DNA of 64,000 nt, from the NCBI RefSeq assembly GCF_003207895.1, contig NZ_NKUB01000001.1, forward strand, positions 1 through 64,000. The letters run 5' to 3'. The notes beneath the pieces were generated by a model, which saw only the letters and a list, made by a program, of their open reading frames with translations, was not told the DNA's origin and searched no databases. The stretch comes from Komagataeibacter swingsii (GTDB lineage Bacteria; Pseudomonadota; Alphaproteobacteria; Acetobacterales; Acetobacteraceae). This document shows, in pieces, positions 4,864 to 60,284 of this stretch; position 1 is the stretch's first letter; each line of letters begins with the position of its first letter. Position numbers and translations under genes: made by a program.

Positions 4864-5020
4864 ACCGCTTTGAAATAAAACATTGATAAAAAAACAATAA
4901 AAGTTTTCTGGTACCGCCTTTTTTCAAAAAGGCGGCGCTCTTTCGAAGCTTCTGCAAAAAGCTTCACCAAAAACTTCCTTTAATTTTAAAGCGCTATCAT
5001 GGGCTGACTTTTCAGACAGT
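4864..5020 (+). repeat. Dispersed hairpin repeat, copy R1
   Basis: About 157 bp between the ABC-F and glutathione transferase genes; this copy shows the full plan of the family. It has an AT-rich end (TTGATAAAAAAACAATAAAA), a first hairpin with CCGCC/GGCGG arms around T and A runs (4914-4936), a second hairpin with GAAGCTT/AAGCTTC arms (4944-4965), the motif CACCAAAAACTTCC, and a distal end containing TTTAAAGCGCTATCATG and TCAGACAGT. The same blocks recur in copies R2-R8. It fills most of the 4781-5104 gap, in which I see no gene. Confidence 0.85.
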
Positions 5021-5104
5021 CTCTTAAGTCTGGCTTTTCAGGCCGTCCCCAAGGGATGAACGTTACGTGGCAGCCGGGACGCACGGGCCAGCGACCGGCC
5101 CGTA

Positions 5105-5791
5105 TCATGCCTTCCCGGCATGGGCATAGGCATATGTCCCACCCCGCAGCAGGGCGCGCTGGTAGGCGGGACGGTCATGGATGCGGCGCAGGAACGCCGC
5201 CACATGGGGCCGGTTGTCCGTGGCCCCCGCCCGTGCGGCGGCGACCTCAAGGGGGAAGCTCATCTGGATGTCGGCGGCGGTAAAGTCATCGCCTGCGAAG
5301 CATTCATTCCCCGACAGGCTGCGCTCCCAGTAATCCATATGCAGCTTGAGCTGGGGATTGATGAGCTTCATCTGTGCCCCGCAGGCAATCAGGAAGGCAA
5401 AAGGGCGCAGCGGCAGGGGCGCGCGTCCGGGCAGCAGCCCGAATATCAGCTTGAGCAGGAGCACTGGCATGGCGGAGCCTTCCGCATAATGCAGCCAGTA
5501 TATGAAGCGGATGTATTCCGGCGTGTCCCGCGCGGGCGCCAGTCGGCCATGACCGTATTTATCGATGATGTATTCGATGATCGCACCGCTTTCGGCCAGC
5601 GTCACGTTGCCATCCGTATCCGTGATGACCGGGGCCTTGCCCAGCGGGTGGATGGTGCGCAGGGATTTGGGGGCCATCATGGTCCTGGGGTCGCGTTTGT
5701 AAAACCGGATGTCGTAGGGGATTTCCAGTTCCTCCAGCAGCCACAGGATGCGTTGGGAACGTGAATTGTCCAGGTGATGCACGGTAATCAT
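5105..5791 (-). CDS. Glutathione S-transferase family protein
   Basis: 228 residues from ATG 5791 (AGGGA 8 bases upstream). The N-terminal thioredoxin-like domain (about 1-80) has the SRSQRILWLLEEL helix after the first strand, the cis-proline region GKAPVITD and the ESGAIIEYI glutathione-contact motif. The C-terminal half is the all-helical GST domain, with the FTAADIQMS motif typical of its helix 6. Cytosolic GSTs of this type conjugate or reduce electrophiles with glutathione; the substrate cannot be predicted. The catalytic residue is probably the Ser of the LDNSRS turn. The gene is monocistronic, with its promoter in the gap shared with the hmp-operon terminator. Confidence 0.88.
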   Translation of the reverse strand: MITVHHLDNSRSQRILWLLEELEIPYDIRFYKRDPRTMMAPKSLRTIHPLGKAPVITDTDGNVTLAESGAIIEYIIDKYGHGRLAPARDTPEYIRFIYWLHYAEGSAMPVLLLKLIFGLLPGRAPLPLRPFAFLIACGAQMKLINPQLKLHMDYWERSLSGNECFAGDDFTAADIQMSFPLEVAAARAGATDNRPHVAAFLRRIHDRPAYQRALLRGGTYAYAHAGKA

Positions 5792-5956
5792 GGTACGGGG
5801 TCCCTCGATTTGGCAGGCGGCCCCACCCGACAGCCCCGCCATGGCGGGCAGAAATGGCACGGGAATAATGTGCCGGTCGGAATGGTGCCGATGTCCTGCT
5901 AAGGGACGCCCGTGGCTTTGGTTCCCCTGCCCTCCCGTGGCGGGGCCTATGCACAC

Positions 5957-6005
5957 GAAAAAAGGCATATCCTGCCGCGACCGCCCGGGTCGGGAGATAT
6001 GCCTT
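5957..6005 (-). terminator. Intrinsic terminator of the hmp operon
   Basis: Read on the minus strand, arms AAGGCATATC and GATATGCCTT (5996-6005 and 5962-5971) enclose a GC-rich inner stem, and a run of seven U residues follows directly (5957-5963). It lies about 35 bp past the stop of the DUF488 gene, as expected for a strong factor-independent terminator. Confidence 0.85.
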
Positions 6006-6039
6006 CTGTCATGGTGGTACCGGGAATGCGCGGGATCGT

Positions 6040-6408
6040 TCAGGCCGCGTGGTCCAGCAGGCGATGCAGGTAGGCGGCCAGCACGACCGCCTCGTTATGC
6101 TGCGTGTCACGCGCGGCGTACAGCAGCGTCAGGGGGCTGGCGCGCGCCATGTCCAGCAACTGTTGCACCGGCTGGGGGTTGGCCCGCAGTTCCGCGACAT
6201 AGCGTTCCTGAAACCCCTCCCACCGGGCCGGGTCGTGCCCGAACCACTGGCGCAGGTCCGTGCTGGGGGCGACGTCCTTCAGCCATAACGTCAGGTCGGC
6301 GCGCTGTCTGCTGACCCCACGGGGCCACAGCCGGTCCACCAGCACGCGGCTGCCATCATCGGGTGTGGGCGGGTCATAAACCCGCCTGACATGAATGGTG
6401 TGCGCCAT
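6040..6408 (-). CDS. DUF488 family protein
   Basis: 122 residues; ATG 6408 lies two bases past the hmp stop, so translation is probably coupled. It has the family's hallmarks: IHVRRVYDPP near the N-terminus, the VDRLWPRG motif near 24-31 and a C-terminal LLYAARDTQHNEAVVL segment. The biochemical role of the family (which includes E. coli YeaO) is not established to my knowledge; YeaO-like genes are often found near stress or nitrosative-stress genes. Here the position behind an NO dioxygenase, under NsrR-like sites and before a shared terminator, suggests a part in the response to nitric oxide. That link is inference from context. Confidence 0.85.
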   Translation of the reverse strand: MAHTIHVRRVYDPPTPDDGSRVLVDRLWPRGVSRQRADLTLWLKDVAPSTDLRQWFGHDPARWEGFQERYVAELRANPQPVQQLLDMARASPLTLLYAARDTQHNEAVVLAAYLHRLLDHAA

Positions 6409-14410: not shown

Positions 14411-14807
14411 CTGTTTATCTGCAGCAAAAAAACATCGCCTCGGAATGTTGTTTCAAAGCAATAGATTGGTTAAGGACAGTAAAATTGTGCTGCCTTTTTT
14501 CAGGAAGGCAGTGTTTTTCGAAGCTTTTTGAAAAAAGCTTCACCAAAAACTTTCTTATGATTGTAGGATATTTCCTGATCCATACATTACGTGATCCACG
14601 CAAAAAGCACACCGTAATACAGGACTGTTCCTGATAGTCTGCTTGCCTGTGGTTGTTTTGTAAATGGATGAGCGACGTTGCCCTGTGGTGCGCATGAACC
14701 GTGTATTTCATGGGGCGGGAAGCATCCGTTTTATGTAACCGGAGAAGTTTTACATAAACCGGAAACGGATGATTATTCTGTATTGTAGATAAACAGGGGA
14801 ATCAAGG
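14411..14807. other. Intergenic region with repeat R2 and an inverted repeat
   Basis: No gene is evident between the cytochrome stop and the aldehyde dehydrogenase hairpins. Besides repeat R2 (listed separately), an imperfect inverted repeat spans 14726-14768: TTTATGTAA (14730-14738) and TTACATAAA (14750-14758), flanked by CCGTTT and AAACGG. It could form a stem in RNA or be a protein site. Confidence 0.5.
14471..14560 (+). repeat. Dispersed hairpin repeat, copy R2
   Basis: Same orientation as R1: a hairpin CTGCCTTTTTT/AGGAAGGCAG (14490-14511), then CGAAGCTTTTTG/AAAAAAGCTTC (14519-14541), then ACCAAAAACTTTCTTATGA. The AT-rich outer ends are poorly preserved, so this copy is shorter. Confidence 0.75.
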
Positions 14808-18410: not shown

Positions 18411-19628
18411 ATGTCAGATAACACGCAGGTCGGGGGCGCGATCACGCAGGTTGCCCCCCCGCATGGGAAAGCGGCCGCTTTCTTCATCCTCACGTTCGGC
18501 ACGTTTGTCGTGGGGACGGGGGAGTTCGCCATCATGGGGATGCTGCCGGAATTCGCGGCGTCCCTCAGGCTGTCCGTGGCCGATGCCGGTTATGTCATTA
18601 CCGCCTATGCGCTGGGGGTGGTGATCGGCGCGCCGCTCATCACCATTCTGGGCGCGCGGCTTTCGCGGCGGGAACTGCTGCTGGTGCTGCTGGTGCTGTT
18701 CTGTTTCGGCAATGTCCTGAGCATCGTCATGCCCACGCCGGGACTGGTGGAGGTCGCGCGTTTCATTACCGGCCTGCCGCACGGGGCGCTGTTCGGGATT
18801 TCCGCATTGGTTGGTGCGTCCATGGTCGAACGCGCGCGACGGGGCTGGGCCGTGGGGCGGGTGCTGTCGGGTATTGCCATAGCGACCCTGATCGGGGCGC
18901 CGTTTTCAACATTCGCCGCCAATCACCTGGGCTGGCGCATGGCGTATCTTGCGATCGCGATCCTTGGTTTCGTCACGTTCCTGGGGGTATGGCGCTATAT
19001 TCCCGCCGATCAGCCAAACCGCCAGAATTCGCCCTTCAGGGAAGTCAGCGCCATGGGCAATGCGCAGGTGCTGCTGACATTGCTGACCGCAGCGATCGGC
19101 TTTGGCGGCATGTTTACGATCTATACCTACCTGACCAGCGTGCTGCAGGACGTGACCCACGTGCCCGAATGGGAAACCATGGTGTATATGGTGGTGTGGG
19201 GCGCGGGCATGCTGGCGGGCGCCAATGTGGGCGCATGGCTGGTGGACCGCAACCTTGACCTTGCCGCCCTGATCGCGCTGGCGGGCAGTGCGGTGGCCAT
19301 GCTGGTGTTTCCCTATATCCTGCATAGCCAGATCGCGCTGATGGCTGACGTGTTCCTGGTGCCAACCTTCGTCAATGCGCTTGGGCCTGCGTTGCAGACG
19401 CGCCTTATGGATTTTGCGGGGGATGCGCAGACACTTGCGGCCTCCCTCAATCATTCCGCGTTCAATATCGCCAATGCGGTAGGGGCGGCCGGGGGCAGTT
19501 TCCTGCTGGCGCGGCAGTTCGGTTATGGTGCGCTGGGCTGGGGTGGCGCGCTGTTTTCGGTTGGCGGGCTGGTCGTGTACCTGCTTGCCCTGATCATGCT
19601 GAAAAGGCATGCCAGGGAAAGCATCTGA
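18411..19628 (+). CDS. MFS efflux transporter, DHA1/AraJ-like
   Basis: 405 residues, 12 predicted helices. The GTGEFAIMG motif in helix 1, the GARLSRRELL loop 2-3 motif and the FITGLPHGALFG helix 4 motif place it with AraJ/SotB/YdhP-type sugar or drug exporters. It is the last gene of the IclR-HbpS-MFS set. It resembles the second MFS gene in this window (33420-34646) block by block (TGEFAIMG/TAEFAAMS, SGLPHGA, NHSAFNIANA/NQSAFNMANA), so the two are paralogues of one subfamily. The substrate is unknown. Repeat R3 starts directly at its stop. Confidence 0.9.
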   Translation: MSDNTQVGGAITQVAPPHGKAAAFFILTFGTFVVGTGEFAIMGMLPEFAASLRLSVADAGYVITAYALGVVIGAPLITILGARLSRRELLLVLLVLFCFGNVLSIVMPTPGLVEVARFITGLPHGALFGISALVGASMVERARRGWAVGRVLSGIAIATLIGAPFSTFAANHLGWRMAYLAIAILGFVTFLGVWRYIPADQPNRQNSPFREVSAMGNAQVLLTLLTAAIGFGGMFTIYTYLTSVLQDVTHVPEWETMVYMVVWGAGMLAGANVGAWLVDRNLDLAALIALAGSAVAMLVFPYILHSQIALMADVFLVPTFVNALGPALQTRLMDFAGDAQTLAASLNHSAFNIANAVGAAGGSFLLARQFGYGALGWGGALFSVGGLVVYLLALIMLKRHARESI

Positions 19629-19716
19629 AAAGTAATAAAAGTGTTGGATGCCGCCTTTTTCAGGAAGGCGGCGTTCTTCGGAACTTTTTGGAAAAAACTT
19701 CGCCAGACACTTCTTC
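19629..19716 (+). repeat. Dispersed hairpin repeat, copy R3
   Basis: It starts next to the MFS stop and runs into the stop codon of the convergent D-2-hydroxyacid dehydrogenase gene (19715-19717). It has ATGCCGCCTTTTTC/GGAAGGCGGC (19649-19671), then a diverged second stem (GGAACTTTTT/AAAAAACTTC) and CGCCAGACACTTC. The element alone separates the two genes, so it probably serves as their shared terminator. Confidence 0.8.
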
Positions 19717-20683
19717 ATGCAATCTGGTTGCGCAACGGGCCGCCGGTTTCCAGCGCCCTGATATTGTCCAGCAGGATATCCACGACATTGTGTTCATAGA
19801 ACTGCGTCTCCCCCGCGACATGGCTGGTCATGACCAGATTGGGCAACTGCCATAACGGGGAAGTGGGCGGCAGTGGTTCATCCGCATAGGTATCAAGGGC
19901 CGCGCCCGCGATGGCGTTCGCGCGCAGGGCGGCGATCAGGGCGGTTTCATCCACGACCCGCCCACGCGCCACGTTGATCAGGCAGGCATCGGGCTTCATG
20001 GCGGCAAAGGCGCGCTGGTCCATCAACCCTTCGGTCTGCGGGGTCAGGGGGCAGGTTAGCACAATATGGTCGGCCTGGCCCATGGCGGCGTGCAGATCGC
20101 CGGGCGCGACCTGCGCGACACCCGGTACATCCAGTGGCCGGGGGCTGTGGCGCATGCCACAGACGCGCATGCCCAGCGCCAGGCAGATCCGTGCCAGCCG
20201 GTCGCCAATGGTGCCCATGCCCACGATCAGCACCATCTTGCCGGTCAGTTCCTGCAGGCGGGGGCGGGCGTCCATGCCGGTGCCCGACCAGTGGGCGCGG
20301 TGCTGGTTATCGCGTGCCTCATACAACCGGCGTGACAGGCTGAGCAGCAGGGCAAGCGCATGTTCCGCAACCGCTGCCGCATTCGCCCCACGCGCATTGC
20401 ACAGGTGGACGTTGCGTGCCCTGAGTTGTGTCAGGTCAAACTGTTCCACCCCGGAACTGATGGACTGTATCAGTTTCAGTCTGGGCGCGCGCGCCAGCAG
20501 GGTGTTGCGCCACAACATGGACACCACCAGCACTTCCGCCTGTGGTATGACCTGTTCCAGTTGCGCGAATGTCTGGACCTGCACGCAGGGGGGCGCGCCG
20601 GGGCGTTTTTCCAGTTCCGCGCGGATATTGTAATATTCATGCGCGACATAGACTGTCTGGCTGGGGCTGTGTATCTGGCTCAC
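19715..20683 (-). CDS. D-2-hydroxyacid dehydrogenase (NAD-dependent)
   Basis: 322 residues from GTG 20683, preceded by AAAGGA at 8 bases; a longer in-frame ATG (20728) would overlap the upstream gene's end. The C-terminal Rossmann domain has GMGTIGDRLARICLALGM. The catalytic set is Arg in SSGVEQFD..NARGAN context and NVARGRVVDE, Glu in the YADEPLP region and His in SHVAGE. These match the phosphoglycerate/glyoxylate/2-ketoacid reductase superfamily. It follows the ornithine-cyclodeaminase-like gene by 31 bp, suggesting the two act on one 2-oxo acid or imino acid route. The specific substrate is not evident. Confidence 0.85.
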   Translation of the reverse strand: MSQIHSPSQTVYVAHEYYNIRAELEKRPGAPPCVQVQTFAQLEQVIPQAEVLVVSMLWRNTLLARAPRLKLIQSISSGVEQFDLTQLRARNVHLCNARGANAAAVAEHALALLLSLSRRLYEARDNQHRAHWSGTGMDARPRLQELTGKMVLIVGMGTIGDRLARICLALGMRVCGMRHSPRPLDVPGVAQVAPGDLHAAMGQADHIVLTCPLTPQTEGLMDQRAFAAMKPDACLINVARGRVVDETALIAALRANAIAGAALDTYADEPLPPTSPLWQLPNLVMTSHVAGETQFYEHNVVDILLDNIRALETGGPLRNQIA

Positions 20684-36002: not shown

Positions 36003-36118
36003 TATAAAGAAGTTTTTGGTGAAGCTTTTTTCCAAAAAGCTTCAAAGAACGCCGCCTTTTTGAAAAAAGCGGTGCCAGAAAAATTTTTATGTTTATTTAT
36101 CAATAAGTTAGTTTAAAA
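36003..36118 (-). repeat. Dispersed hairpin repeat, copy R4
   Basis: Opposite orientation to R1: AAGAAGTTTTTGGTGAAGC, the AAGCTT hairpin (36022-36043), then GCCGCCTTTTT/GAAAAAAGCGGTG with a base change in one arm, then AAAAATTTTTATG and TTTATCAATAAG at the AT-rich end. It fills the gap between the flavoprotein and asparaginase genes. Confidence 0.85.
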
Positions 36119-37179: not shown

Positions 37180-37200
37180 GTGATGATTTCAGATTAAGAG

Positions 37201-37320
37201 ACTGTTTGAAAACAACCCGTTGATAAAAAACAATAAAAGTTTTTGGGTGCCGCCTTTTTTCAAAAAGGCGGCATCAGGAAATTTTTATCATTTCCTATCA
37301 ATGACTTATTTTAAAACAGT
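37201..37320 (+). repeat. Dispersed hairpin repeat, copy R5 (short form)
   Basis: 120 bp with clear terminal inverted repeats: ACTGTTTGAAAAC at the left, AAAACAGT at the right, and TTGATAAAAAACAATAAAAG against its inverted counterpart near 37278-37302. Only the GCCGCC/GGCGGC hairpin is in the centre (37250-37272); the AAGCTT hairpin is missing. The whole element could fold into one long stem. It ends at the stop codon region of the convergent outer-membrane protein gene. Confidence 0.88.
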
Positions 37321-37323
37321 CCT

Positions 37324-47976: not shown

Positions 47977-48192
47977 AACGTTCGCCGCCGTTTCGCTCCC
48001 GCGCGGCGCGCATCATCCTTGCGGGGAGGCGCCTGCAATGACCCGCCGCTTCATCTATCCGGACGTTATCGCTGAAATGCGGGCTGTCGGTTCGAAACAT
48101 CGTGTCGGGCAGATATCGGCTGATGGGGCACAGCGCGCCGAAAGCGCGATCGTCGCGATTGAAGAAAATGATATCCGCGATTTTCTCAAAGG

Positions 48193-48347
48193 CGGTTTGA
48201 AAAGTCAGCTCATGATAGCGCTTTAAAATTAAAAGAAGTTTTTGGTGAAGCTTTTTGCAGAAGCTTCGAAAGAACGCTGCCTTTTTGAAAAAAGACAGCA
48301 CCTGAAAACTTTTATTGTTTTTTATCAATGAGTTATTTTCAAACAGT
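48193..48347 (-). repeat. Dispersed hairpin repeat, copy R6
   Basis: Reverse of R1 and full length: GCTCATGATAGCGCTTTAAA at the left, AAGAAGTTTTTGGTGAAGC, a hairpin AAGCTTTTTGC/GCAGAAGCTTC-type (48249-48268), then GCTGCCTTTTT/AAAAAAGACAGC, then TTTTATTGTTTTTTATCAA and TTTTCAAACAGT. It has an exact 20-base match plan to R1 at both ends. Confidence 0.88.
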
Positions 48348-48484
48348 TTTTCATAAATCATGGAAGGGGAACTGGCCAGGTTTGGCATTGATGAGGATGC
48401 CCAAGGGTCACAGACGCGCAAGGTCGTGCGTGCGCTCTTGCTCTGGCTGCCGAAGCGCGAAAACGAAGCCGCATGAACGCGGGA

Positions 48485-48562
48485 AAATAAAAAAAGCTTC
48501 ACCACGGATGCCGTCTTGTGAAAAGGCGGCGTCCTGGTGAAACCTTTATTGTTTTCAGGGAT
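48485..48562 (-). repeat. Degraded remnant of the dispersed repeat (R9)
   Basis: Contains AAAAAAAGCTTCACCA, a changed stem (GATGCCGTCTTGTG/AAAAGGCGGCGTC) and CTTTATTGTTTTC, in an order that mixes blocks from both orientations. It looks like a rearranged or partly deleted copy, 138 bp from R6. Confidence 0.55.
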
Positions 48563-48565
48563 GCT

Positions 48566-49591: not shown

Positions 49592-49982
49592 GCCCGCGTG
49601 GATATGGTGCGGCCCGTGACGGGTCAAGGGCGCGGCCTGTATCAGGAATTATTTTAAGTAATCTGTTGATAAAGGATAATAAAAGTTTCTGTCTGCCGCC
49701 TTTTTCCAAAAAGCGGCGTTTCCCTGTAACGTTTTGAAAAAAGCTTCACCAAAAATTTCCTTATGACCCGCAACGCGCCAGACCGGGCATTGCGGAATGC
49801 AGCGGACACTGCGGAACAGGTTGACGGAACGCGCAAAAGTTTGCCCGCCCCCCATTTTTTCGTGATCAATATTTCTTGCATTAACCAATATGCCGGAAAA
49901 AATGGACTAGGCATTTATCCGGACCTCACGGATATAGTGAGCATTCGGATCAAGAGAGACATGGCATAGCGGGCAGGCGTTT
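49592..49982. promoter_or_regulatory. Region before the second dehydrogenase operon
   Basis: Repeat R7 occupies the first part. The rest holds no supported gene. At 49925-49941 the inverted repeat CTCAC-ggatata-GTGAG is a candidate operator or covers the promoter, about 40 bp upstream of the small-subunit gene. Confidence 0.4.
49648..49765 (+). repeat. Dispersed hairpin repeat, copy R7
   Basis: Same orientation as R1: TTATTTTAAGTAATCTGTTG, TAATAAAAGTTTC, hairpin GCCGCCTTTTTC/AAAAAGCGGC (49695-49716), a second stem altered on one side (TAACGTTTTG/AAAAAAGCTTC), then ACCAAAAATTTCCTTATGA. It lies upstream of cobD. Confidence 0.8.
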
Positions 49983-50678: not shown

Positions 50679-52462
50679 GCGACGACGCACGCAGGCTGCG
50701 CGCGGTTGACGTGGTGATCGTGGGCGGTGGCTGGGCCGGGTCCATCATGGCCAAGGAAATGACCGAGGCCGGTCGGTCGGTCGTCATGCTGGAACGCGGG
50801 CCGGACCGCAGCACGGCGGCGGACGGGGCCTATCCCGCCTCGATCGACGAACTGGAGGCCAATTTCCGTTATAAGCTGTTCCAGGACCTGTCGAAGAATA
50901 CCGTCACCATCCGCAACAACAGCCGGCAGACGGCGCTGCCCTATCGCCGCATGGCCGCCTTCCTGCCCGGTGAGGGCGTGGGCGGCGCGGGCCTGCACTG
51001 GTCTGGCGTGCATTTCCGCATACCGCCCGATGACCTGCGCCTGCGTACGCGCGTGATCGAGAAATACGGCGCCAAATTCATTCCCGAAGGCATGAACCTG
51101 CAGGATTACGGCGTCAGTTACGAGGAACTGGAACCCTTTTTCGACAAGGCGGAAAAGGTATTCGGCACATCGGGCGAAGCCTACATGGTCAAGGGGCAGG
51201 TGGTGGGGAAGGGGAATGTGTTCTCCCCCTCGCGTTCTGACCATTTCCCGCTGCCCGCGCTGAAGGATGTCTATACCGCCCACCTGTTCCGCAAGGCGGC
51301 GGCGGAAGTGGGATTCCACCCCTATTCCCTGCCGGCGGCCAATGCGTCGCGGCAGTACATCAACCCGTATGGCGTGCAGATGGGGCCGTGCAATTTCTGC
51401 GGTTATTGCAGCGGGTATGCCTGTTACATGTATTCCAAGGCATCGCCCAACGTGAACATCCTGCCGGTGCTGCGGCGTCACCCGCTGTTTGAGCTGCGCG
51501 CGGGCTGCCATGTAATGAAGGTGGAACTGGATGCGGAGGGCAGGCGGGCGACCGGCGTGACCTATACCGATCCCGATGGCGCGGTCGTGACCCAGCCCGC
51601 GGAGATGGTGATCCTGACCGCGTTCCAGTTCCATAATGTCCGGCTCATGCTGCTGTCGGGCATCGGCAGGCCTTATGACCCCGCACGCAACGAAGGGGTG
51701 GTGGGGCGCAATTTCGTCTACCAGAACGTAACGACCAGCAATGTCTGGCTCGACCGCGGTATTGATACGAACCAGTATATCGGCGCGGGCGGCGGCGGTG
51801 TCGCGTTTGATGACTTCAACAGCGAAAATTTCGACCACGGGCCGCTGGGTTTCGTGGGGGGATCGCCGGTCTGGGTGAACCAGGCGGGTGTGAAGGCAAT
51901 CGCCGCCGCCCATTCCGGCGGCCCGCCGGGCACGCCGCGCTGGGGCAGTGCGTGGAAGGCGGGCGTGATCGACACCTACCGCCATTCCCTGCGCATTGAT
52001 GCCCATGGCGCGAACATGGCCTATCGCGACGTGTATCTCGACCTCGACCCGACATGGAAGGACGCTTACGGACAGCCCCTGCTGCGCATGACGTTTGACT
52101 GGAAAGACAACGACATCCGCATGAACCGCTATGTGGTGGACAGGATCGGCGACGTGGCGAAGGCCATGGGCGCGCGGCGCGTCAACCTGACAAAACGCGA
52201 ATTCGGCAGGCCGTTCGATACACGACAGTACCAGACCACCCATCTGGGTGGCGGAGCGGTCATGGGCACGGATCCGGGCACCAGCGCGCTCAACCGCTAC
52301 CTGCAGTCATGGGATGTGCATAATGTATTCGTGATCGGGGCGAACGCCTTTCCGCAGGGAACGGGCTACAACCCCACCGGCATGGTCGCGGCGCTGGCGT
52401 ACTGGGCGGCCCACCACATCCGCACGACCTATCTTGCCCATCCCGGGCCGCTGGCGGGATGA
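50675..52462 (+). CDS. FAD-dependent gluconate/2-ketogluconate dehydrogenase-type large subunit
   Basis: 595 residues, GMC family, the length of gluconate 2-dehydrogenase flavoproteins (about 590) and longer than the first operon's large subunit (545). FAD motif VVIVGGGWAGSIMAKEM near 11-27; GEGVGGAGLHWSG near 95; a Cys cluster CNFCGYCSGYACYMYSKASP starting near 239; C-terminal GANAFPQGTGYNPTGMVAALAY. It oxidises a sugar acid at the periplasmic face and passes electrons to the cytochrome subunit. Gluconate to 2-ketogluconate, or the next step, is the family expectation. ATGA overlaps couple it on both sides. Confidence 0.86.
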   Translation: MSDDARRLRAVDVVIVGGGWAGSIMAKEMTEAGRSVVMLERGPDRSTAADGAYPASIDELEANFRYKLFQDLSKNTVTIRNNSRQTALPYRRMAAFLPGEGVGGAGLHWSGVHFRIPPDDLRLRTRVIEKYGAKFIPEGMNLQDYGVSYEELEPFFDKAEKVFGTSGEAYMVKGQVVGKGNVFSPSRSDHFPLPALKDVYTAHLFRKAAAEVGFHPYSLPAANASRQYINPYGVQMGPCNFCGYCSGYACYMYSKASPNVNILPVLRRHPLFELRAGCHVMKVELDAEGRRATGVTYTDPDGAVVTQPAEMVILTAFQFHNVRLMLLSGIGRPYDPARNEGVVGRNFVYQNVTTSNVWLDRGIDTNQYIGAGGGGVAFDDFNSENFDHGPLGFVGGSPVWVNQAGVKAIAAAHSGGPPGTPRWGSAWKAGVIDTYRHSLRIDAHGANMAYRDVYLDLDPTWKDAYGQPLLRMTFDWKDNDIRMNRYVVDRIGDVAKAMGARRVNLTKREFGRPFDTRQYQTTHLGGGAVMGTDPGTSALNRYLQSWDVHNVFVIGANAFPQGTGYNPTGMVAALAYWAAHHIRTTYLAHPGPLAG

Positions 52463-53829
52463 CGGGCATGGCGTGGGGAAAGCGGCTGTGCCTGCTGGCG
52501 GCCGTGCTGGCGGCGGGGATGATGGCGACGCCACTGGCGCGCGCGCAGGATCAGGCACCGGATCACCAGCTACACGGGCAGGACGGGGATGATGCGGTCG
52601 CGCGCGGGGAATACATGGCCCGCGTGGCCGATTGCGGGGCCTGCCATACCGTGCCCGGCGGTGCGCCCTTTGCCGGGGGCATGGCCTTCCACCTGCCGAC
52701 CGGCACGCTGTACGCCCCCAACATCACCCCGGACCGGCAGACGGGCATTGGCCGGTATTCCGAAGCCGAATTCAGCCGTGCCCTGCGCCGGGGCATCCGC
52801 CGTGACGGGGCGACGCTGTACCCGGCCATGCCCTATCCGTCATATGCCCGCCTGACGGATGCGGACGTGCATGTGCTGTATGTCTATTTCATGCAGGGGG
52901 TAAAACCCGTCACGCATGCGGTGGCGCAGGATGGCATGGTGTGGCCGATGTCCATGCGCTGGCCGCTTTCCATCTGGCGCACGCTGTATGCCCCCGACCC
53001 GGAGGCCGTGCGGCGCGACATGGATCGCCGTACCTTCGCCGACCCGCTGGTGGCGCGTGGCAGCTATCTGGTCGAAGGGCCGGGCCATTGTGGCGCGTGC
53101 CATACGCCGCGCGCCCTGACCATGCAGGAAAAGGCCCTGACGGCGGCGGATGGGCCGCTGTACCTGTCGGGGGGGGACGTGGTGGATGGCTGGCGTCCCG
53201 TCAGCCTGCGCGGGGAAAACCGCACCGGGCTGGGGCGGTGGAACGAACATGACATCGTCCGTTTCCTCGCGACCGGGCGCATGCCGCTGGGGGCGGCCTT
53301 TGGCGGCATGGCGGACGCCATTGGCCATGGCACGCAGCATATGACGGATGATGACCGGCTGGCGATCGCGCGCTACCTCAAGACCCTGTCACCCGCAGCA
53401 CCCATGGTGGCGCAGGGCTGGACCTACGACCCTGCGGTAACGGACGCCCTGCGCGCGGGTGATGTCTCGGCCCGGGGCGCGCGGGCCTATGTCGATCGCT
53501 GCGCGGCCTGCCACCGCACCGATGGCCGCGGCTATCCCACCACGTTCCCGCCACTGGCGGGCAACCCGGTGGTCATGGACCCCAGACCCGATTCCCTGAT
53601 CCGCATCGTGCTGGAAGGCAATATCCTGCGCGCCACGCGGCAGGCGCCTTCCGCCTTTGTCATGCCCGGTTTCGCCGCGCGCATGGACGACAGGGCCGTG
53701 GCGGATACCGTCACCTTCATCCGCGCGGCGTGGGGGAATGACGCGCCTGCCGTAACAGGCGTGGATGTGGCGCGGATACGGCGCACCCTGTCGCCCGGAC
53801 ACCCGCCCGCATCCTTGCCCATGAACTGA
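52459..53829 (+). CDS. Tri-heme cytochrome c subunit of the second dehydrogenase
   Basis: 456 residues, ATGA overlap with the large subunit. Signal peptide about 1-30 (LLAAVLAAGMMATPLARAQ). Three c-heme motifs: CGACH at 59, CGACH at 211 and CAACH at 348. PFAGGMAFHLPTGTLYAPNITPD after the first heme is a family hallmark shared with the first operon's cytochrome. It carries electrons to ubiquinone. It lacks the Pro-Ala linker of the first cytochrome. Confidence 0.9.
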   Translation: MTGMAWGKRLCLLAAVLAAGMMATPLARAQDQAPDHQLHGQDGDDAVARGEYMARVADCGACHTVPGGAPFAGGMAFHLPTGTLYAPNITPDRQTGIGRYSEAEFSRALRRGIRRDGATLYPAMPYPSYARLTDADVHVLYVYFMQGVKPVTHAVAQDGMVWPMSMRWPLSIWRTLYAPDPEAVRRDMDRRTFADPLVARGSYLVEGPGHCGACHTPRALTMQEKALTAADGPLYLSGGDVVDGWRPVSLRGENRTGLGRWNEHDIVRFLATGRMPLGAAFGGMADAIGHGTQHMTDDDRLAIARYLKTLSPAAPMVAQGWTYDPAVTDALRAGDVSARGARAYVDRCAACHRTDGRGYPTTFPPLAGNPVVMDPRPDSLIRIVLEGNILRATRQAPSAFVMPGFAARMDDRAVADTVTFIRAAWGNDAPAVTGVDVARIRRTLSPGHPPASLPMN

Positions 53830-53913
53830 TTGTGAACCATGCGCGGGGCGGGGTTCGATTGCCCTTGTCCCCCGGACTTGCCTCAATGACCTGATATCCA
53901 GCACGGGGAGACG

Positions 53914-55170
53914 ATGACCATGTCCATGCACAGGCGTGACCTGTTCCGTGCCATCCTGCCATTGTCCGTGGGGCTGTATGGTGTCGCCCATGCGGCGGAA
54001 CCGGCGCGTGATGCCACCAACCGCGACCATGGCGTGGCGCCCTCCGGCCCGTTCGAGGTCGTGGCCCGGTTTGATGGTCCCGGCCCGTCCGGCATCGCGG
54101 TGACGCATGGGCGCGTATTCGTGGGGTTCCCCCGCCACGCGGTCAATCACCACGGCGCGACCTTGGCTGAACTGAAGGACGGGAAGCTGTACCCCTATCC
54201 CGACGCGGCGCACAGCATGCCCTCCGACCAGCCGCCAGCAAGCCGCCTCATGTCCGTGCATGGCATGACGACGGATGCGCGGGGGCGGTTATGGGCCATT
54301 GACGATGGCAAGCTGGCGGGGCAGCCACTTGTCCCCGGTGCGGCGAAAATCATCGGCATCGACCCGGAAACCGACCGGATCTCCGCCAGCATCATCCTGC
54401 GCGCGCCGACCCTGCTGCCCGACAGCCACATGAACGACCTGCGGGTGGACCTGACGCATGGGGCGCAGGGTACGGTGTATGTGACCGATTCCTCCTTCGG
54501 CCTGTCGCCCGCCCTTGTGGTGGTGGATATCGCGACAGGACGGCAGCGCCGGGTGCTGGCCGATCATCCCTCCATCCAGGCGGAGCGTCCCTTCATGGCG
54601 GTGGTGGAGGGGCGACCGCTGGTGTTCGATCCCCCGCGGCACCCGCCCGCCTTCGTCTGGGGCGGGGTGGACGGCATTACCCTGTCGCCCGACAGCGCCA
54701 CGCTGTATTACAGCCCGCTGACCAGCAGGCGGCTTTACGGCATTCCCACCAGCCTGCTGGCTGATTTTTCCAAGACCGACGCGCAGCTTGCAGCCGGAAT
54801 ACGCGACCTGGGGGAAAAGGGCGTGGCCGACGGGCTGGCCAGTGATGCAAGGGGGCGCATCTACACCACCAATTTCGAACATGACGCCATCTTCCGCCGC
54901 AATGCCGACGGGACGTTCGACACCATGGTGCATGACCCGCGCATCCTCTCGCCCGACGGGATATTCGTCGATGGCGACATGGTCTACTGCACGCTGGGGC
55001 AGTGGAACCGGCTGGGCGGGCTGAATGGCGGGCATGACCTGCGGGTGCCCCCCTATTACCTGATCCGCTTTCCCACCGACGCCCCCGTGGCCATGGACGC
55101 GACAAAGCCCGCGCATGGCTGGTTGCCCCTTTCCCCCGACGCTGAATTGCGGCAACAATCCATGCCATGA
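53914..55170 (+). CDS. Yellow/major royal jelly protein family (MRJP), exported
   Basis: 418 residues with a Tat-like signal HRRDLFRAILPLSVGLYGVAHA. The chain has the six-bladed propeller signs of the MRJP/yellow family: FVGFPRHAVNHHGATLAELK, SVHGMTTDARGRLWAIDDGK, MNDLRVDL, YVTDSSFGLSPALVVVDIATGR and GVADGLASDARGRIYTTNFEHDAI. Bacterial members are found in dehydrogenase contexts and may be lactonases or sugar-acid binding proteins. Following the gluconate-type SLC genes by 84 bp, it could act on the lactone formed by periplasmic oxidation; this is inference. Its stop overlaps the pyrD start. Confidence 0.8.
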   Translation: MTMSMHRRDLFRAILPLSVGLYGVAHAAEPARDATNRDHGVAPSGPFEVVARFDGPGPSGIAVTHGRVFVGFPRHAVNHHGATLAELKDGKLYPYPDAAHSMPSDQPPASRLMSVHGMTTDARGRLWAIDDGKLAGQPLVPGAAKIIGIDPETDRISASIILRAPTLLPDSHMNDLRVDLTHGAQGTVYVTDSSFGLSPALVVVDIATGRQRRVLADHPSIQAERPFMAVVEGRPLVFDPPRHPPAFVWGGVDGITLSPDSATLYYSPLTSRRLYGIPTSLLADFSKTDAQLAAGIRDLGEKGVADGLASDARGRIYTTNFEHDAIFRRNADGTFDTMVHDPRILSPDGIFVDGDMVYCTLGQWNRLGGLNGGHDLRVPPYYLIRFPTDAPVAMDATKPAHGWLPLSPDAELRQQSMP

Positions 55171-56243
55171 ATATTATGTCGCGTATGATCCTGCCGCTCA
55201 TGCGGCGTCTGGAACCCGAGACCGCCCATCACCTCGCCCTTGATGCCCTGCAACTGGGCCTGGGTGGGGTGTCCTGCCCTGGGAAGGATGACCCGGCGCT
55301 GTCGGTGCGGGCCATGGGCCTGCGGTTTCCCAACCCCATCGGCATGGCGGCGGGGTTTGACAAGAATGCGCTGGTCGTGCGCCCGCTGGCGCGATCGGGC
55401 TTCGGTTTTGTCGAAGCCGGAACCGTGACCCCGCGCCCGCAGCCCGGCAACCCGCAGCCGCGCCTGTTCCGGCTGACGGAAGACCGCGCCATCATCAACC
55501 GCATGGGCTTCAACAACCAGGGCATCGACCGTTTTGCCGTGCGCATGGCGCGCCTGCACCGCGTGGCGTCCCCGCGCCGCACGCCGGGGGCGCAGGTGCC
55601 GGTGGGGGCGAACCTTGGCATCAACAAGACCGGCGCGGACCCCGAGCGCGATTACCCCATGCTGGTCGGGCGGGTGAAGCATTATGCCGACTACATCGTC
55701 ATCAACCTGTCCTCGCCCAACACGCCGGGCCTGCGCGACCTGCTGGAGGCCACGCGCCTGAAGGGCATCCTGGACGCGATCAGTGCCGCCCACCCCGAAC
55801 GGCCGCCGCTGCTGGTCAAGATTTCGCCCGATATCGCGCATGATGACGTGCCAGCGGTGGTCGAGGCCGCGATTGCGGGTGGCGTGCAAGGGCTGATTGT
55901 CTCGAACACCACCATTTCCCGCCCGGCGGGGCTGCGCAGCCCGTATGCCAGCGAGACCGGCGGCCTGTCCGGTCGTCCCCTGCGCGCGCTGGCGCAGGAC
56001 ATGCTGGCCCGCGTGGCGCAGGTGGCGGATGGCCGCGTGGCGCTGGTGGCCTGTGGCGGGATCGAGACCGGGGCCGATATCGTGGACCGGGTGCGCGCGG
56101 GGGCGGACCTTGTGCAGATCTATACGTCCTATGTTTACGAAGGGCCGGGCATCATCGCGCGGCTGAAGGCCGAAACCCTGCGCGCGCTGCGTGCCGAAGG
56201 GTTCGAGACACTGGCCGATGCCAAGGGGACCGCCCGCAAATGA
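55167..56243 (+). CDS. pyrD: Dihydroorotate dehydrogenase, quinone-dependent (class 2)
   Basis: 358 residues, membrane-associated through a short N-terminal helix (MRRLEPETAHHLALDAL). FMN-binding and active site motifs: NPIGMAAGFDKNA near 53, NRMGFNNQG near 110, INLSSPNTPGLRDL with the class 2 catalytic Ser, VSNTTISRP and a GGIETGAD block near the end. It oxidises dihydroorotate to orotate and reduces ubiquinone. It is embedded between an MRJP gene and a HAD gene by ATGA overlaps at both ends, so it is probably cotranscribed with the oxidase operon. Confidence 0.96.
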   Translation: MNIMSRMILPLMRRLEPETAHHLALDALQLGLGGVSCPGKDDPALSVRAMGLRFPNPIGMAAGFDKNALVVRPLARSGFGFVEAGTVTPRPQPGNPQPRLFRLTEDRAIINRMGFNNQGIDRFAVRMARLHRVASPRRTPGAQVPVGANLGINKTGADPERDYPMLVGRVKHYADYIVINLSSPNTPGLRDLLEATRLKGILDAISAAHPERPPLLVKISPDIAHDDVPAVVEAAIAGGVQGLIVSNTTISRPAGLRSPYASETGGLSGRPLRALAQDMLARVAQVADGRVALVACGGIETGADIVDRVRAGADLVQIYTSYVYEGPGIIARLKAETLRALRAEGFETLADAKGTARK

Positions 56244-57115
56244 AATGGCATGACGGGCTGTCCACGCTGAACGCGGATTATGACGGCTACATCCTCGACC
56301 TGTGGGGTGTGGTGCATAATGGGGTCCAGCCCTATCCCGGCGTTCTGGAATGCCTGCAGCGCCTGCGGGCGGCGGGCCGTCGCGTCGTGCTGCTGTCCAA
56401 CGCGCCGCGCCGCACCGCAACGGTCGAGCCGAACCTGCGCCGCATGGGCGTCAGCGCCGACCTGTATGACGCCATCATGACCAGCGGCGAATGCACCCAC
56501 CGCATGCTGGCCAGCCGCGATGACCCGTGGTTCGCCGCACTGGGGCGGCGCATGATCCATCTTGGCCCGGAAAAGGACGTGGATGTCTATGCCGGGCTGG
56601 ACCTTGATGTGGTCACCGACCCGGCGCAGGCGGATTTCGTGCTCAATACCGGGCCGGATGCCGAACTGGGGGAAGAAGACATCGCGCCCTACCTGCCGCT
56701 GCTGCAACGCTGCGCCGCGCAGGAACTGCCCATGATCTGCGCCAATCCCGACCAGCAGGTCATCCGGGGCACGCAGCGCCTGATCTGTGCCGGCGCCATG
56801 GCAAGCTGGTATGCGGAACATGGCCGCGACGTGCGCTGGATCGGCAAGCCCTACCCCGAAGTGTACGGGCTGGCGCTGTCATTGCTGGATGTGCCGCGTG
56901 ATCGTGTGCTGGCGCTGGGGGATGCGCTGGCGACCGACATGCGCGGGGCCGCCACCGCCGGGATTGATGGCTGCTGGGTGCTGGGTGGTATCCATCAGGA
57001 AATGCTGGGCGGTAGCTGGAAACAGGGGCGTAACCCGGATTACGACCTCGCACTGGCCGAGGCCTCCGCCGCCGGGCTTGCGCCGGTGGCCTGCGTGCCG
57101 TCCCTGCGCTGGTAG
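56240..57115 (+). CDS. HAD-superfamily class IIA hydrolase (TIGR01459-like)
   Basis: 291 residues. Nucleophile motif GYILDLWGVVHNG (Asp 20); motif II VVLLSNAPR; cap region typical of NagD/pyridoxal phosphatase-like proteins; motif III WIGKPYPEVY; motif IV LALGDALATDMRGA. This alphaproteobacterial subfamily usually has DLWGV where others have DxDG. Probably a sugar-phosphate or nucleotide phosphatase; the substrate is unknown. ATGA overlap with pyrD, as seen for this family next to pyrD or tRNA genes in relatives I recall. Confidence 0.87.
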   Translation: MKWHDGLSTLNADYDGYILDLWGVVHNGVQPYPGVLECLQRLRAAGRRVVLLSNAPRRTATVEPNLRRMGVSADLYDAIMTSGECTHRMLASRDDPWFAALGRRMIHLGPEKDVDVYAGLDLDVVTDPAQADFVLNTGPDAELGEEDIAPYLPLLQRCAAQELPMICANPDQQVIRGTQRLICAGAMASWYAEHGRDVRWIGKPYPEVYGLALSLLDVPRDRVLALGDALATDMRGAATAGIDGCWVLGGIHQEMLGGSWKQGRNPDYDLALAEASAAGLAPVACVPSLRW

Positions 57116-57130
57116 GGCGGCCCTCCCTGG

Positions 57131-57715
57131 TCAGGCGTGGCCGGGGGAGGCGCTGTACCACGCGGGGTCAATGCGCACGCTGGCCAGCGCCTGCCGCCAC
57201 TTGGCGTTGTGATCGGCCCCGAATACGATGTTTTCGGTGGCCGGGGCCGCGATCCACGCATCATGGCGCAGCATTTCTTCCTCCAGCTGTCCCGCCTCCC
57301 AACTGGCATGTCCCATGGCCAGCAGCGCATGGGCGGGGCCATTGCCATCGGCTATGTCACGCAGCACGTCCAGACTGGCCGTAAGCGTGGTGGTGCGGTC
57401 CACCGGCAGGCTGCCATCGCCGCTCCAGTCCGATGTATGCAGCACGAAGCCACGCCCGTTATCCATCGGCCCGCCCGCGCACAGGTTGATGCGGCGGCGC
57501 GGGGGGACGGGGGCGATGCCAAGCTGTTCCAGCACGTCATCCAGTACGGGCTGGGACAGGCGACGGTTGACGACAAGGCCCATGGCCCCGTCCTCGGGCG
57601 TATGGGCGCACAGGTAGACGACACTGCGCGCGAAGGCGGGATCGGTCAGGGCAGGGGTAGCCACAAGCAGGTGACCCGTCAGGCTGCAGCCTGGAGTTGT
57701 CGCAAAGGAAGCCAT
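57131..57715 (-). CDS. YqgE/AlgH family protein
   Basis: 194 residues from ATG 57715; a longer in-frame ATG at 57751 is possible. Family signs: LTGHLLVATPALTDPAFARSVVYLCAHTPEDGAMGLVVNRRL at the N-terminus, NLCAGGPMDNGRGFVLH and GHASWEAGQLEEEM. YqgE's biochemical function is unknown; the fold is known. It converges with the HAD gene, 15 bp apart. Confidence 0.93.
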   Translation of the reverse strand: MASFATTPGCSLTGHLLVATPALTDPAFARSVVYLCAHTPEDGAMGLVVNRRLSQPVLDDVLEQLGIAPVPPRRRINLCAGGPMDNGRGFVLHTSDWSGDGSLPVDRTTTLTASLDVLRDIADGNGPAHALLAMGHASWEAGQLEEEMLRHDAWIAAPATENIVFGADHNAKWRQALASVRIDPAWYSASPGHA

Positions 57716-57845
57716 ACACCACCATAGAACCGGATTTGCCCTGCTTTGCAACCATTTCAGGCATTGCCCATGGCGTGATCGTTCTCAATGACGGATGCCC
57801 CGCGATATGCAAGGCTTGCCGTTCCATGCACGAAGGAGACCGACC

Positions 57846-58604
57846 ATGAAGCAGACCGCACTGGTAACCGGGGCCACAGCCGGATTCGGCAAGGCGATTG
57901 CCCAGCGCCTTGTGCATGATGGCTACCGTGTCATCGCAACCGGCCGCAGGCGCGAACGCCTTGAGGCGCTGGCGGCGGAACTGGGGCCGGACCTGCTGCC
58001 CTTCCCGCTGGACATGGATGACGCGGCCGCAGTCACGGCCCTGCCGGGCAGCCTGCCGGAGGGATGGCGCGATGTGGACGTGCTGATCAACAATGCCGGG
58101 CTGGCGCTGGGCATGGAAAAGGCGCAGGACGCGGATATCGCCAACTGGCAGACCATGATTGCCACCAACGTGACCGGCATGGTCGAACTGACGCGCGTGC
58201 TGCTGCCCGGCATGGTGGCGCGCGATCGCGGGCATGTCGTGACCCTTGGCAGCACGGCTGGCGCCTATCCCTATGCCGGCGGCAACGTGTATGGCGCGAC
58301 CAAGGCGTTTGTCAGCCAGTTCACGCGCAACCTGCGCTGTGACCTGCTGGGGCATAATGTGCGCGTGACGAACCTTGAACCCGGCCTGTGCGGGGGGAGT
58401 GAGTTCAGCCAGGTGCGCCTGCGTGACGATGCGAAGGCCGCGGCGGTGTACGCGGGCACAAAGCCGCTGCTCCCGGTGGACATTGCCGAAACGGTGGCCT
58501 GGGTCCTGTCGCTGCCGCGTCATGTCAATATCAACGAAATCGAGATGATGCCGGTCTGTCAGGCGGCGGGCGGCCTTGCGGTGGCGCGGGGGATGAAGGA
58601 CTGA
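57846..58604 (+). CDS. Short-chain dehydrogenase, YdfG-like
   Basis: 252 residues from ATG 57846 (GAAGGAG at 7 bases). NAD(P) motif TGATAGFGKAIAQRL; NNAGLALG; catalytic Ser in LGSTAGAYP; YGATK active-site Tyr and Lys; EPGLCGGSEFSQVR. The pattern resembles E. coli YdfG (3-hydroxypropionate/serine dehydrogenase, NADP). It ends two bases before the PPK2 gene, so the two form an operon. Confidence 0.87.
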   Translation: MKQTALVTGATAGFGKAIAQRLVHDGYRVIATGRRRERLEALAAELGPDLLPFPLDMDDAAAVTALPGSLPEGWRDVDVLINNAGLALGMEKAQDADIANWQTMIATNVTGMVELTRVLLPGMVARDRGHVVTLGSTAGAYPYAGGNVYGATKAFVSQFTRNLRCDLLGHNVRVTNLEPGLCGGSEFSQVRLRDDAKAAAVYAGTKPLLPVDIAETVAWVLSLPRHVNINEIEMMPVCQAAGGLAVARGMKD

Positions 58605-58606
58605 TC

Positions 58607-59536
58607 ATGGCCCGCAAGACCAGGAATATGAGCAACACGCTGGCGCGCCAGTTCCGTGTGCGCGACGGGCATGGTTTTTCCCTTGCAGCCTGCCCCACGC
58701 GGGCGGCGGAAGCCTGCGGGCTGGACAAGAAAACCGGCAAGCGGCTGCTGAAGGAACGCATCCGCCGCCTGTCGCAACTGCAGGCCGTGCTGTACGCCAA
58801 TGGCACATGGTCCGTGCTGATTGTGTTGCAGGCGCTGGATGCGGGGGGCAAGGACGGCGTGATCAAGCATGTCATGTCCGGCATCAACCCGCAGGGTGTC
58901 AGTGTTACGTCGTTCAAGCAGCCCGGTCCGGTTGAACTGTCGCACGGATACCTGTGGCGCGAGCATCTGGCCGCGCCCGCGGCAGGCCGCATCGGTATTT
59001 TCAACCGCAGCCATTATGAGGAAGTGCTGGTCACCCGCGTGCATCCCGAACTGCTGGACCATGAATGCCTGCCGCCCTCCCTCCGTAAAAAGCCGACATT
59101 CTGGCAGGACCGTTACGAGGACATCATCCATTTCGAACAGTACATGGCGCGCCAGGGCACGGTTGTGCTGAAGTTCTTCCTGCACCTGTCCAAGGAGGAG
59201 CAGCGAAAGCGCTTCCTGCGCCGCATCGACCATCGTACCAAGAACTGGAAATTCTCGCCCGCCGACATCCACGAACGGCAGTACTGGGATGCGTACCAGA
59301 ACGCGTACGAGGAAGCGATCCGGCGCACCGCCGGCCCCGATGCGCCGTGGTTTGTCGTGCCAGCCGACCAGAAATGGTTTGAACGGCTGGTGGTGATCGA
59401 GGCCATCATTGACGCGCTGGAAAAACTGCGCCTGAAAATGCCGGCATCCGATCCCGCCATGGAGGCGGAAATGGAAAAGGCCCGCAGGCAGCTTGAAGCG
59501 GAAGCCCCGCCGGCCCCCAATCACGCCGTTCATTGA
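58607..59536 (+). CDS. ppk2: Polyphosphate kinase 2 family protein
   Basis: 309 residues. Walker A ALDAGGKDGVIKHVM near 73-87; lid and base motifs IFNRSHYEEVLVTRVH, DIIHFEQYMARQGTVVLKFFLHLSKEEQRKRF; WDAYQNAYEEAIRRT. PPK2 enzymes use polyphosphate to phosphorylate NDPs or NMPs. Length fits class I or III single-domain enzymes. It starts two bases after the SDR gene. Confidence 0.92.
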   Translation: MARKTRNMSNTLARQFRVRDGHGFSLAACPTRAAEACGLDKKTGKRLLKERIRRLSQLQAVLYANGTWSVLIVLQALDAGGKDGVIKHVMSGINPQGVSVTSFKQPGPVELSHGYLWREHLAAPAAGRIGIFNRSHYEEVLVTRVHPELLDHECLPPSLRKKPTFWQDRYEDIIHFEQYMARQGTVVLKFFLHLSKEEQRKRFLRRIDHRTKNWKFSPADIHERQYWDAYQNAYEEAIRRTAGPDAPWFVVPADQKWFERLVVIEAIIDALEKLRLKMPASDPAMEAEMEKARRQLEAEAPPAPNHAVH

Positions 59537-59591
59537 CCTGCGTGCCGACACCCCGCAAAAGATTGTGATCTTGTGTGAATGGAGAACAGTC

Positions 59592-60161
59592 ATGGCGGCG
59601 ACGCGCTGGCATATACGTGGGGTAATGGGGCTGGCGGCGGCCCTTGCGGTGCAGGGGGCGTTCATGGCGCCAGCCGAGGCGCGCCGCCATCACCACCACA
59701 GGCGGGAACAGGCCGGGGAAGAGTACCAGCAGTCCGGCAGCGAAAAGGACAATGCGCAGACACAGGCCATCGCCAGCCCCGTGCCGGAATCCTGTGATGA
59801 CCGTAAATTCCTTGCCGATGTCGAGGCGGCGGAAGGCAGGCAGGGCGACCAGCCGGATCGGGTCGAGCATGTCTGTGGCCGCGTGATCGCGGTATCCGCG
59901 TCAAAACGGACACGCAGCGGCCTGCATGGTTATTTCTATGTCGATGTCGGCAATGGCGTGTCCATCCGCATCGTATCCGATCTGGACCGTATGTCAGCCC
60001 CCGCATGGCCGTGGGTGGCCAAGGGCGACCAGGCGGACGTGCTGGGCCGGTATTACTATGACAACGCCCGTAGCCAGGGCATTGACTGGACGCATCACGG
60101 CACCGGGCGCACCTGGCCGGTGGAAGGATACGTGACGGTCAACGGCAGGCGTTACCAGTAA
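59592..60161 (+). CDS. Exported DUF3465 protein
   Basis: 189 residues from ATG 59592 (GGAG at 7 bases). Signal peptide about 1-29 (ALAVQGAFMAPAEA), then RRHHHHRRE, a His/Arg cluster that could bind metal, then a flexible Gln/Ser region. The DUF3465 domain (about 88-189) has VCGRVIAVS, GYFYVDVGNGVSIRIVSD and the characteristic WTHHGTG..W..EGYVTVNGRRYQ end. Function unknown; the fold may be OB-like. Repeat R8 follows at once. Confidence 0.85.
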   Translation: MAATRWHIRGVMGLAAALAVQGAFMAPAEARRHHHHRREQAGEEYQQSGSEKDNAQTQAIASPVPESCDDRKFLADVEAAEGRQGDQPDRVEHVCGRVIAVSASKRTRSGLHGYFYVDVGNGVSIRIVSDLDRMSAPAWPWVAKGDQADVLGRYYYDNARSQGIDWTHHGTGRTWPVEGYVTVNGRRYQ

Positions 60162-60163
60162 CA

Positions 60164-60284
60164 GGCTGTCGCAGGTCTGAAAGAAGTTTTTGGGTGCCGC
60201 CTTTTTTCAAAAAGGCGGCGTTCCTTGAAGCTTTTTGGAAAAAAGCTTTACCAAAAACTTCTGTTTTTTATCAATGACTTATTC
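60164..60284 (+). repeat. Dispersed hairpin repeat, copy R8
   Basis: About 120 bp between the DUF3465 stop and the YnfA stop. AAGAAGTTTTTGGGTGCCG, hairpin GCCGCCTTTTTTC/AAAAAGGCGGC (60196-60219), stem TGAAGCTTTTTGG/AAAAAAGCTTTA, then CCAAAAACTTCTGTTTTTT and ATCAATGACTTATT. It mixes the AAGAAG outer block (reverse type) with the forward order and ends within the YnfA stop codon. Confidence 0.85.

Follow-up and report, generated by a model that had tools for sequence, protein, structure and literature searches.

Dispersed gene-end repeats of Komagataeibacter swingsii predicted to fold as three-way junctions, probably two-way terminators and in part carried by a miniature transposable element

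Repetitive extragenic palindromic (REP) sequences and bacterial interspersed mosaic elements (BIMEs) are described, in the excerpts of PMC3733652 consulted here, as high-copy intergenic repeats that are often paired in opposite orientation and lie mainly downstream of genes, in convergent or co-directional gaps. Other dispersed repeats resemble terminators, among them the pneumococcal SPRITE, covered in the excerpts of a review of miniature inverted-repeat transposable elements (MITEs; PMC10969869), and the uptake signals of Neisseria and Pasteurellaceae, which according to the excerpts of PMC1852404 often form terminators. Here we describe a family of intergenic hairpin repeats in a 64-kb window of the Komagataeibacter swingsii genome (G000; 3.73 Mb in 113 contigs), the window being positions 1-64000 of a 388.8-kb contig. 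The repeat shares with REP sequences and BIMEs its high copy number and its location between genes, mainly downstream of them and in convergent or co-directional gaps, and differs from them in its three-way junction and in that some copies lie within an IS5-type MITE. With bidirectional intrinsic (Rho-independent) terminators it shares the gene-end position, the palindromic fold and a T-rich tail on each strand, but it carries two hairpins inside a closing helix rather than one, forms a dispersed sequence family, and would end transcription only by our interpretation. The MITE resembles the IS5-family MITEs and elements of the genus in being short, with inverted ends and a 3-bp TNA duplication, yet it differs from them in the fourth letter of its ends and in its cargo, a folded 3'-end element. 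The likeness to SPRITE and to uptake-signal terminators, which belong to other taxa, is one of description and not of sequence or fold. In the literature considered, which also included excerpts of PMC6528568 and PMC4686929 (both on genomes of acetic acid bacteria), PMC13155455 and PMC11109978 and came mostly from outside the subscription journals, we found no description of this repeat, and exact sequence strings had no match.

Our reading, to which we assign a probability of about 0.7, is that the core of the repeat acts at 3' ends in both directions, most likely as a transcription terminator, and that a MITE carries some copies as cargo. Its placement was determined over 1.56 Mb of sequence, taken from nine genomes of the genus in stretches picked for their synteny with the contig and not at random. 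All 106 copies found there are intergenic, 63 in convergent, 39 in co-directional and 4 in divergent gaps, amounting to 2.97, 0.36 and 0.07 copies per kb of gap, respectively. Among gaps of at least 60 bp a copy is present in 61/102 convergent, 38/454 co-directional and 4/153 divergent ones (convergent gaps of all lengths numbered 162), and copies in co-directional gaps show no preference of orientation (22 against the gene, 17 with it). Neither MITE end is recognizable in 88 of the 106 copies (50 convergent, 34 co-directional, 4 divergent), while the other 18, with a recognizable end, comprise 13 convergent and 5 co-directional ones. The nearest stop codon lies a median of 17 bp from the edge of the core (n=102), compared to ~157 bp for 18 complete MITEs, for which 40 bp were added for the MITE arm (p 6e-8). 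By their closeness to stop codons and their concentration in convergent gaps the copies are located at 3' ends, meaning ends of genes and not of mapped transcription units.

A high copy number, together with stem letters that differ between genera and recall the dialects of uptake sequences, would also suit a site acting at the DNA level (for a nucleoid protein or gyrase) or an uptake signal, tolerated only between genes, and the terminator-forming uptake signals mentioned above count in its favor. Uptake signals, however, are also common inside genes, where none of the 106 copies lies, and neither kind of site predicts a density ~40-fold higher in convergent than in divergent gaps, so that we consider this explanation very improbable.

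The initial annotation of the window had listed eight copies and a remnant at 48485, in both orientations and only between genes. All nine exist when read directly and this placement holds at every site; a repeat search recovers the eight, and so does an iterated nhmmer profile, which covered the window and 392.8 kb of G000 (35 non-overlapping copies) and gives no report of the remnant at E<=1e-4. Chance origin is excluded, as a comparable profile run on the 1.56 Mb gave the 106 copies there but no match in reversed sequence. The exact letters of the ordered blocks that the copies were said to share are not common to all members, with ACCAAAAACTTC (either strand) occurring exactly four times and AAAAACAATAAAA three times in the window, and the density of about one copy per 8 kb is a local one, 24 copies having been found in the 384 kb read of the contig. 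The copies of the window are as follows:

220..283, no strand assigned: half-copy remnant, absent from the earlier list; convergent gap; read by eye
4859..5023, + strand: MITE copy (4864); right end GAGACTGTCTGAAAA (5009-5023), with a decayed left end; flanked by two co-directional genes on the - strand
14455..14559, + strand: core with decayed left end (14471); between convergent genes 13126-14340 (+) and 14908-16377 (-)
19626..19719, + strand: core filling the whole gap (19629) between convergent genes 18411-19628 (+) and 19715-20683 (-)
36003..36113, - strand: core and left end (36003); between gene 34701-35966 (+) and the asparaginase gene 36118-37179 (+)
37198..37321, + strand: fold-back variant (37201) made of left end, GCCGCC stem and inverted left end; terminal inverted repeat GAGACTGTTTGAAAA at 37198; convergent gap
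48189..48350, - strand: complete MITE of 162 bp (48193), ends with at most 3 mismatches, flanks TCA/TCA; convergent gap between 46507-47976 (+) and 48566-49591 (-)
48484..48558, no strand assigned: remnant copy (48485) in the same gap as the 48189-48350 MITE; read by eye, end coordinates approximate
49651..49765, + strand: core and decayed left end (49648); divergent gap
60178..60283, + strand: core (60164; core proper 60182-60263), followed on the right by left-end sequence in inverted form; convergent gap, flanked by 59625-60161 (+) and a ynfA-like gene 60283-60585 (-)

The 37201 copy, with its two left ends around a GCCGCC stem and no AAGCTT stem, departs from the description by shared blocks, and a second fold-back of this kind, again with two left ends around one stem, was seen at L009:17821-17958. 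Such derivatives have the form expected from hairpin-driven template switching, which may be how they arose.

The core, of ~85 bp, is predicted to fold into a three-way junction in which a closing helix, AAGTTTTTGG/CCAAAAACTT, joins two stems, GCCGCC and AAGCTT. When positions 60178-60270 were folded as single strands, the closing helix and both hairpins formed on either strand (-39.7 and -36.3 kcal/mol, z ~ -5.9); values were less extreme for the copies at 36003 (z -4.4 on one strand and -3.5 on the other, with the two hairpins only), 14481 (z -3.6) and 19634 (z -2.5, second hairpin barely formed). An alignment of 71 copies, in which those with and without MITE ends were taken together, has 84.1% of its cells paired in the three-helix structure (GCCGCC stem 90.6%, AAGCTT stem 86.6%, closing helix 75.2%), and 56 cells have changed on both sides, compared to 30.6 +/- 4.5 after shuffling, though relatedness among copies can inflate such counts. 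None of 500 shuffles reached this number of pairing-keeping double changes, and so pairing, named in the initial annotation as a point on which the family would stand or fall, is preserved among the copies. The core is not a known Rfam RNA, since no match in the window reached the gathering threshold; the 22 matches of the 48193 copy (E 0.11 to 8.9) all lie far under the gathering scores.

Right outside the closing helix both strands carry T-rich tails, the 8 nt there holding a mean of 4.7 T on one strand and 5.0 on the other, compared to 1.8 in gaps, and 54/71 copies have at least four T on both sides. Tails of this kind are needed by a two-way terminator but not by a pure RNA stabilizer or processing site at the 3' end (an exonuclease barrier, or an RNase III or RNase E site, without termination, as proposed for REP elements), an explanation that predicts the identical placement and agrees with the long stable stems and with the failure of the copies to be flagged as canonical terminators; we deem it unlikely. 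Given its position, its fold on both strands, its two T tails and its indifference to orientation, the core is more readily understood as a two-way terminator or 3'-end element than as a silent MITE. Since the same fold and a T-rich tail are met from either side, one copy could end both transcripts of a convergent pair, whichever way it points. Thus, of the possibilities raised in the initial annotation, a transcribed 3' structure is the best fit for copies that are not transposons, owing to their stop codons, convergent gaps, two-sided tails and covariation, with transcription itself presumed.

Some cores lie inside a MITE of 162-164 bp, with ends GAGRCTGTTTGAAAA and target duplications TNA, of IS5 type. 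At up to one mismatch these ends occur 114 times in G000, compared to none for a reversed-pattern control. A survey for complete MITEs, covering the window and loci L005-L024 and L068-L097 (the loci of 30 of the listed ends), gave 18 elements of 162-164 bp carrying both ends, each with at most 3 mismatches; their 3-bp flanks are identical in 12/18, and TNA stands on both sides in 14/18. Nine of them lie in co-directional gaps, eight in convergent gaps and one at a contig edge, with none in a divergent gap or a gene. The exact pattern of TNA plus end is present in 16/19 genomes of the genus, 57 times in G000 and 0 to 16 times in the others, which points to a recent burst in G000. The earlier suggestion of a non-autonomous transposon therefore holds for a subset of copies, which have inverted ends and TNA duplications, but not for the 88/106 that have no recognizable ends.

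Two plasmid copies are flanked by TAA/TAA as read by eye, one of them on a plasmid of Novacetimonas hansenii whose backbone is shared, without the MITE, by plasmids of K. medellinensis, K. oboediens and K. europaeus. At this unoccupied site the right junction coincides with the TAA stop codon of DotG, the adjoining bases differing by 1-2 letters, and on the left a second, IS630-labelled insertion masks the junction. Chromosomal sites were too diverged between species for a base-exact proof of this sort. The IS630-labelled element, seen at the left edge of the MITE beside the DotG/IcmE stop codon (N. hansenii plasmid p1, L372), carries a transposase that we rejected as mobilizer, since IS630 targets TA and the MITE duplicates three bases. 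Targeting of stop codons, with TAA or TGA serving as TNA, fits this plasmid copy and one of the 18 complete MITEs (L073); it was rejected as the main cause of the 3' bias because a whole MITE would place its core farther from the stop codon than cores without ends are.

The nearest ends that accompany a transposase belong to an 883-bp IS5-family element (NF033580, IS5_3 model) of genome G012 (L129), whose ends, GAGCCTGTTTGGAAA and GAGCCTGTTTGAAAA, agree with the MITE ends at 13 and 14 of 15 letters, and related elements are held by G014, G018 and G004. A 930-bp element of G002 with ends GAGCCCGATCCGAAAGTTTTT, which we take to be IS1031-like, was rejected as the direct source, its ends being different. 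The transposase that moves the MITE may be supplied in trans by an IS5-family element.

Copies recur at orthologous sites, above all in convergent gaps. Orthologues of copy-bearing sites of G000 hold a copy in 32/49 convergent, 8/20 co-directional and 2/7 divergent cases, and the same comparison from G018 gave 23/45 convergent and 8/29 co-directional ones; where the convergent gap had no copy, its orthologue had one in 2/4 cases from G000 and 10/35 from G018. For the 60164 site the element is present in the orthologous gap of 6/7 comparable genomes, while for the 4864 site that gap is empty in both comparable genomes, G011 and G002. A scan with the ClpA protein, aimed at orthologues of the 60164 site, listed 80 loci, none of them from Komagataeibacter. 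The cores themselves change fast, as those at orthologous sites are 71.0% alike (58 pairs), only slightly above the 67.2% of unrelated cores (2021 pairs).

This fast change would also be expected of a decaying MITE family alone, in which insertions elsewhere were purged, the survivors are intergenic and the core has no function. Such an account has in its favor the genuine ends, the TNA duplications and the recent burst, and even the 18 complete copies shun genes and divergent gaps. It sits badly, however, with covariation among copies (all kinds pooled) of which most lack recognizable ends, with a distance to stop codons about a ninth of that of complete MITEs and with their frequency at orthologous convergent gaps. 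In addition, the same architecture appears in other genera, where MITE ends were seen by eye beside the printed copies in G106 only, no end search having been made there. We therefore judge MITE decay alone improbable and prefer the two-way terminator.

Orthologous copies also differ in orientation. By profile strand, 39/107 orthologous pairs with clear calls are flipped, 26 further pairs being unclear, and both orientations occur in 11/20 orthologous groups, or 8 once three are dropped (fold-back, new MITE insertion or merged neighbors). Out of six flipped pairs that were aligned, the core matches better when reversed in four (0.71-0.78 compared to 0.52-0.56), with the order of the flanks kept, and matches poorly either way in two; two unflipped control pairs match better in direct orientation. 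The reversed cores are located, in script coordinates, at:

contig C25, ~176172-176175 and ~183036-183040 (L010), compared with G011
G011:189264, compared with G018
G002:167041, compared with G004

We read them as probable inversions in place between the closing arms, replacement with another copy being the alternative.

Several results weigh against a terminator carried by a MITE. A simple terminator scan flagged 0/4 window copies in 45001-64000, although the scan accepts hairpins only if their loop is 3-8, a condition out of reach for a three-way junction. In convergent gaps the element does not go along with fewer canonical terminators, which were detected in 14/58 with the element and 14/46 without (p=0.51), and by a stricter detector in 10/61 and 7/41. 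For co-directional gaps the two detectors disagree (0/27 with the element and 69/440 without, p=0.02; stricter, 6/38 and 52/416, p=0.61), and the less strict one also fires in 21/104 reversed convergent gaps. Unguided RNAalifold retained only an extended first stem and not the three-helix fold, the profile takes in part of the AT-rich left flank and so favors a T tail on one side, and genes were called by our own codon-usage script. Finally, none of 111 transposase loci checked (51 of G000, with two Pfam models; 30 of seven relatives, with Pfam; 30 genus-wide, by protein) had a transposase between ends of exactly GAGRCTGTTTGAAAA, though more matches lacked a locus and some G000 transposases lie at contig ends.

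The element is present in 19/19 genomes of the genus, and so further copies in related genomes, on which the initial annotation had also staked the family, do exist; the likeness to Komagataeibacter DNA that it mentioned fits as well, the named matches being Komagataeibacter and Novacetimonas plasmids. Beyond the genus, a nucleotide search found it in 0/5 other genera of the family first tried and gave a single weak match among 16 others of the class, and a search across the family added one genus at full strength (G106) and ten weak matches (13/120, including two members of the genus). By eye, 16 of the 17 regions from these ten weakly matching genomes show the unit with other stem letters and one or two hairpins, the remaining one (L164) being a chance match. 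Variants include AATAAAAGTTTTTTG-GTTC-T6-C-A6-GAAC and CTTC-type second hairpins closed by CAAAAAAACTTTAT.

A pattern for the unit, AAAGTTTTTN{1,12}TTTTTNAAAAA, matched 93/299 genomes and 34/99 genera of the Acetobacteraceae, compared to 8 control matches in 6 genomes; counts reach 1085 per genome, some matches overlapping, and some of the 93 genomes hold only one or two. Extreme counts, 1085 and 857 matches, some overlapping, were seen in G204 and G113, both Acetobacteraceae. Outside the family it was found in 17/285 genomes (18 matches), which is the level of the reversed control (16 matches in 12). In stretches of ten genomes outside the genus, genomes chosen for having matches, a looser pattern gave 43 units, 19 convergent, 14 co-directional, 2 divergent, 6 genic and 2 at an edge, or 1.45, 0.37 and 0.12 per kb of convergent, co-directional and divergent gap. 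Hairpins with a side arm were absent from 388 kb of loci listed by the ClpA scan and used as a control (L262-L334), and likewise from 39 kb of seven Acetobacteraceae-like loci (L255-L261) and 40 kb of G008.

REP sequences moved by a REP-associated tyrosine transposase (RAYT) were rejected as an identity for the element, as the REP tag GTAG occurs in 0/71 copies and CGTC in at most 8/71 at any of eight positions, and the Y1 transposase (PF01797) is present in only 1/14 genomes (G129) and not in G000; the excerpts of PMC3733652 likewise report CGTC repeats to be missing in Acetobacteraceae. RAYT is thus an unlikely general means of core spread. A wider and more tentative idea, which we consider possible but doubtful, is that the cores form a self-spreading, family-wide class of orientation-indifferent terminators with lineage dialects in their stems, spread neither by RAYT nor, outside Komagataeibacter and Novacetimonas, by any visible MITE; they would be reversible in place between the closing arms and would once have become the cargo of an IS5-type MITE, so that mobile elements supply and replace the stops of convergent genes.

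Apart from the repeat family, the window contains a 53-nt direct repeat of 96% identity (2791-2843 and 2992-3044) inside a called gene, 701-3073 (-).

To summarize, we propose that the core serves gene ends across part of the Acetobacteraceae, and that transcription from either side would yield the three-way junction (two hairpins on a closing helix) with a T-rich tail behind it. A copy, probably older than the MITE, would in Komagataeibacter and Novacetimonas have become the interior of the IS5-type MITE with ends GAGRCTGTTTGAAAA and target TNA, which would be moved by a transposase supplied in trans, and copies near stop codons would be retained while their outer ends decay. If this is true, a single dispersed and partly mobile element serves as the end point in ~60% of the convergent gaps (60 bp or longer) examined in an industrially exploited genus, which would explain a large part of 3'-end formation in the genus and provide ready-made two-way terminators for the engineering of cellulose- and vinegar-making bacteria. 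It would also turn the spread of a terminator, genome by genome and with no known transposase, into a question that can be tested.

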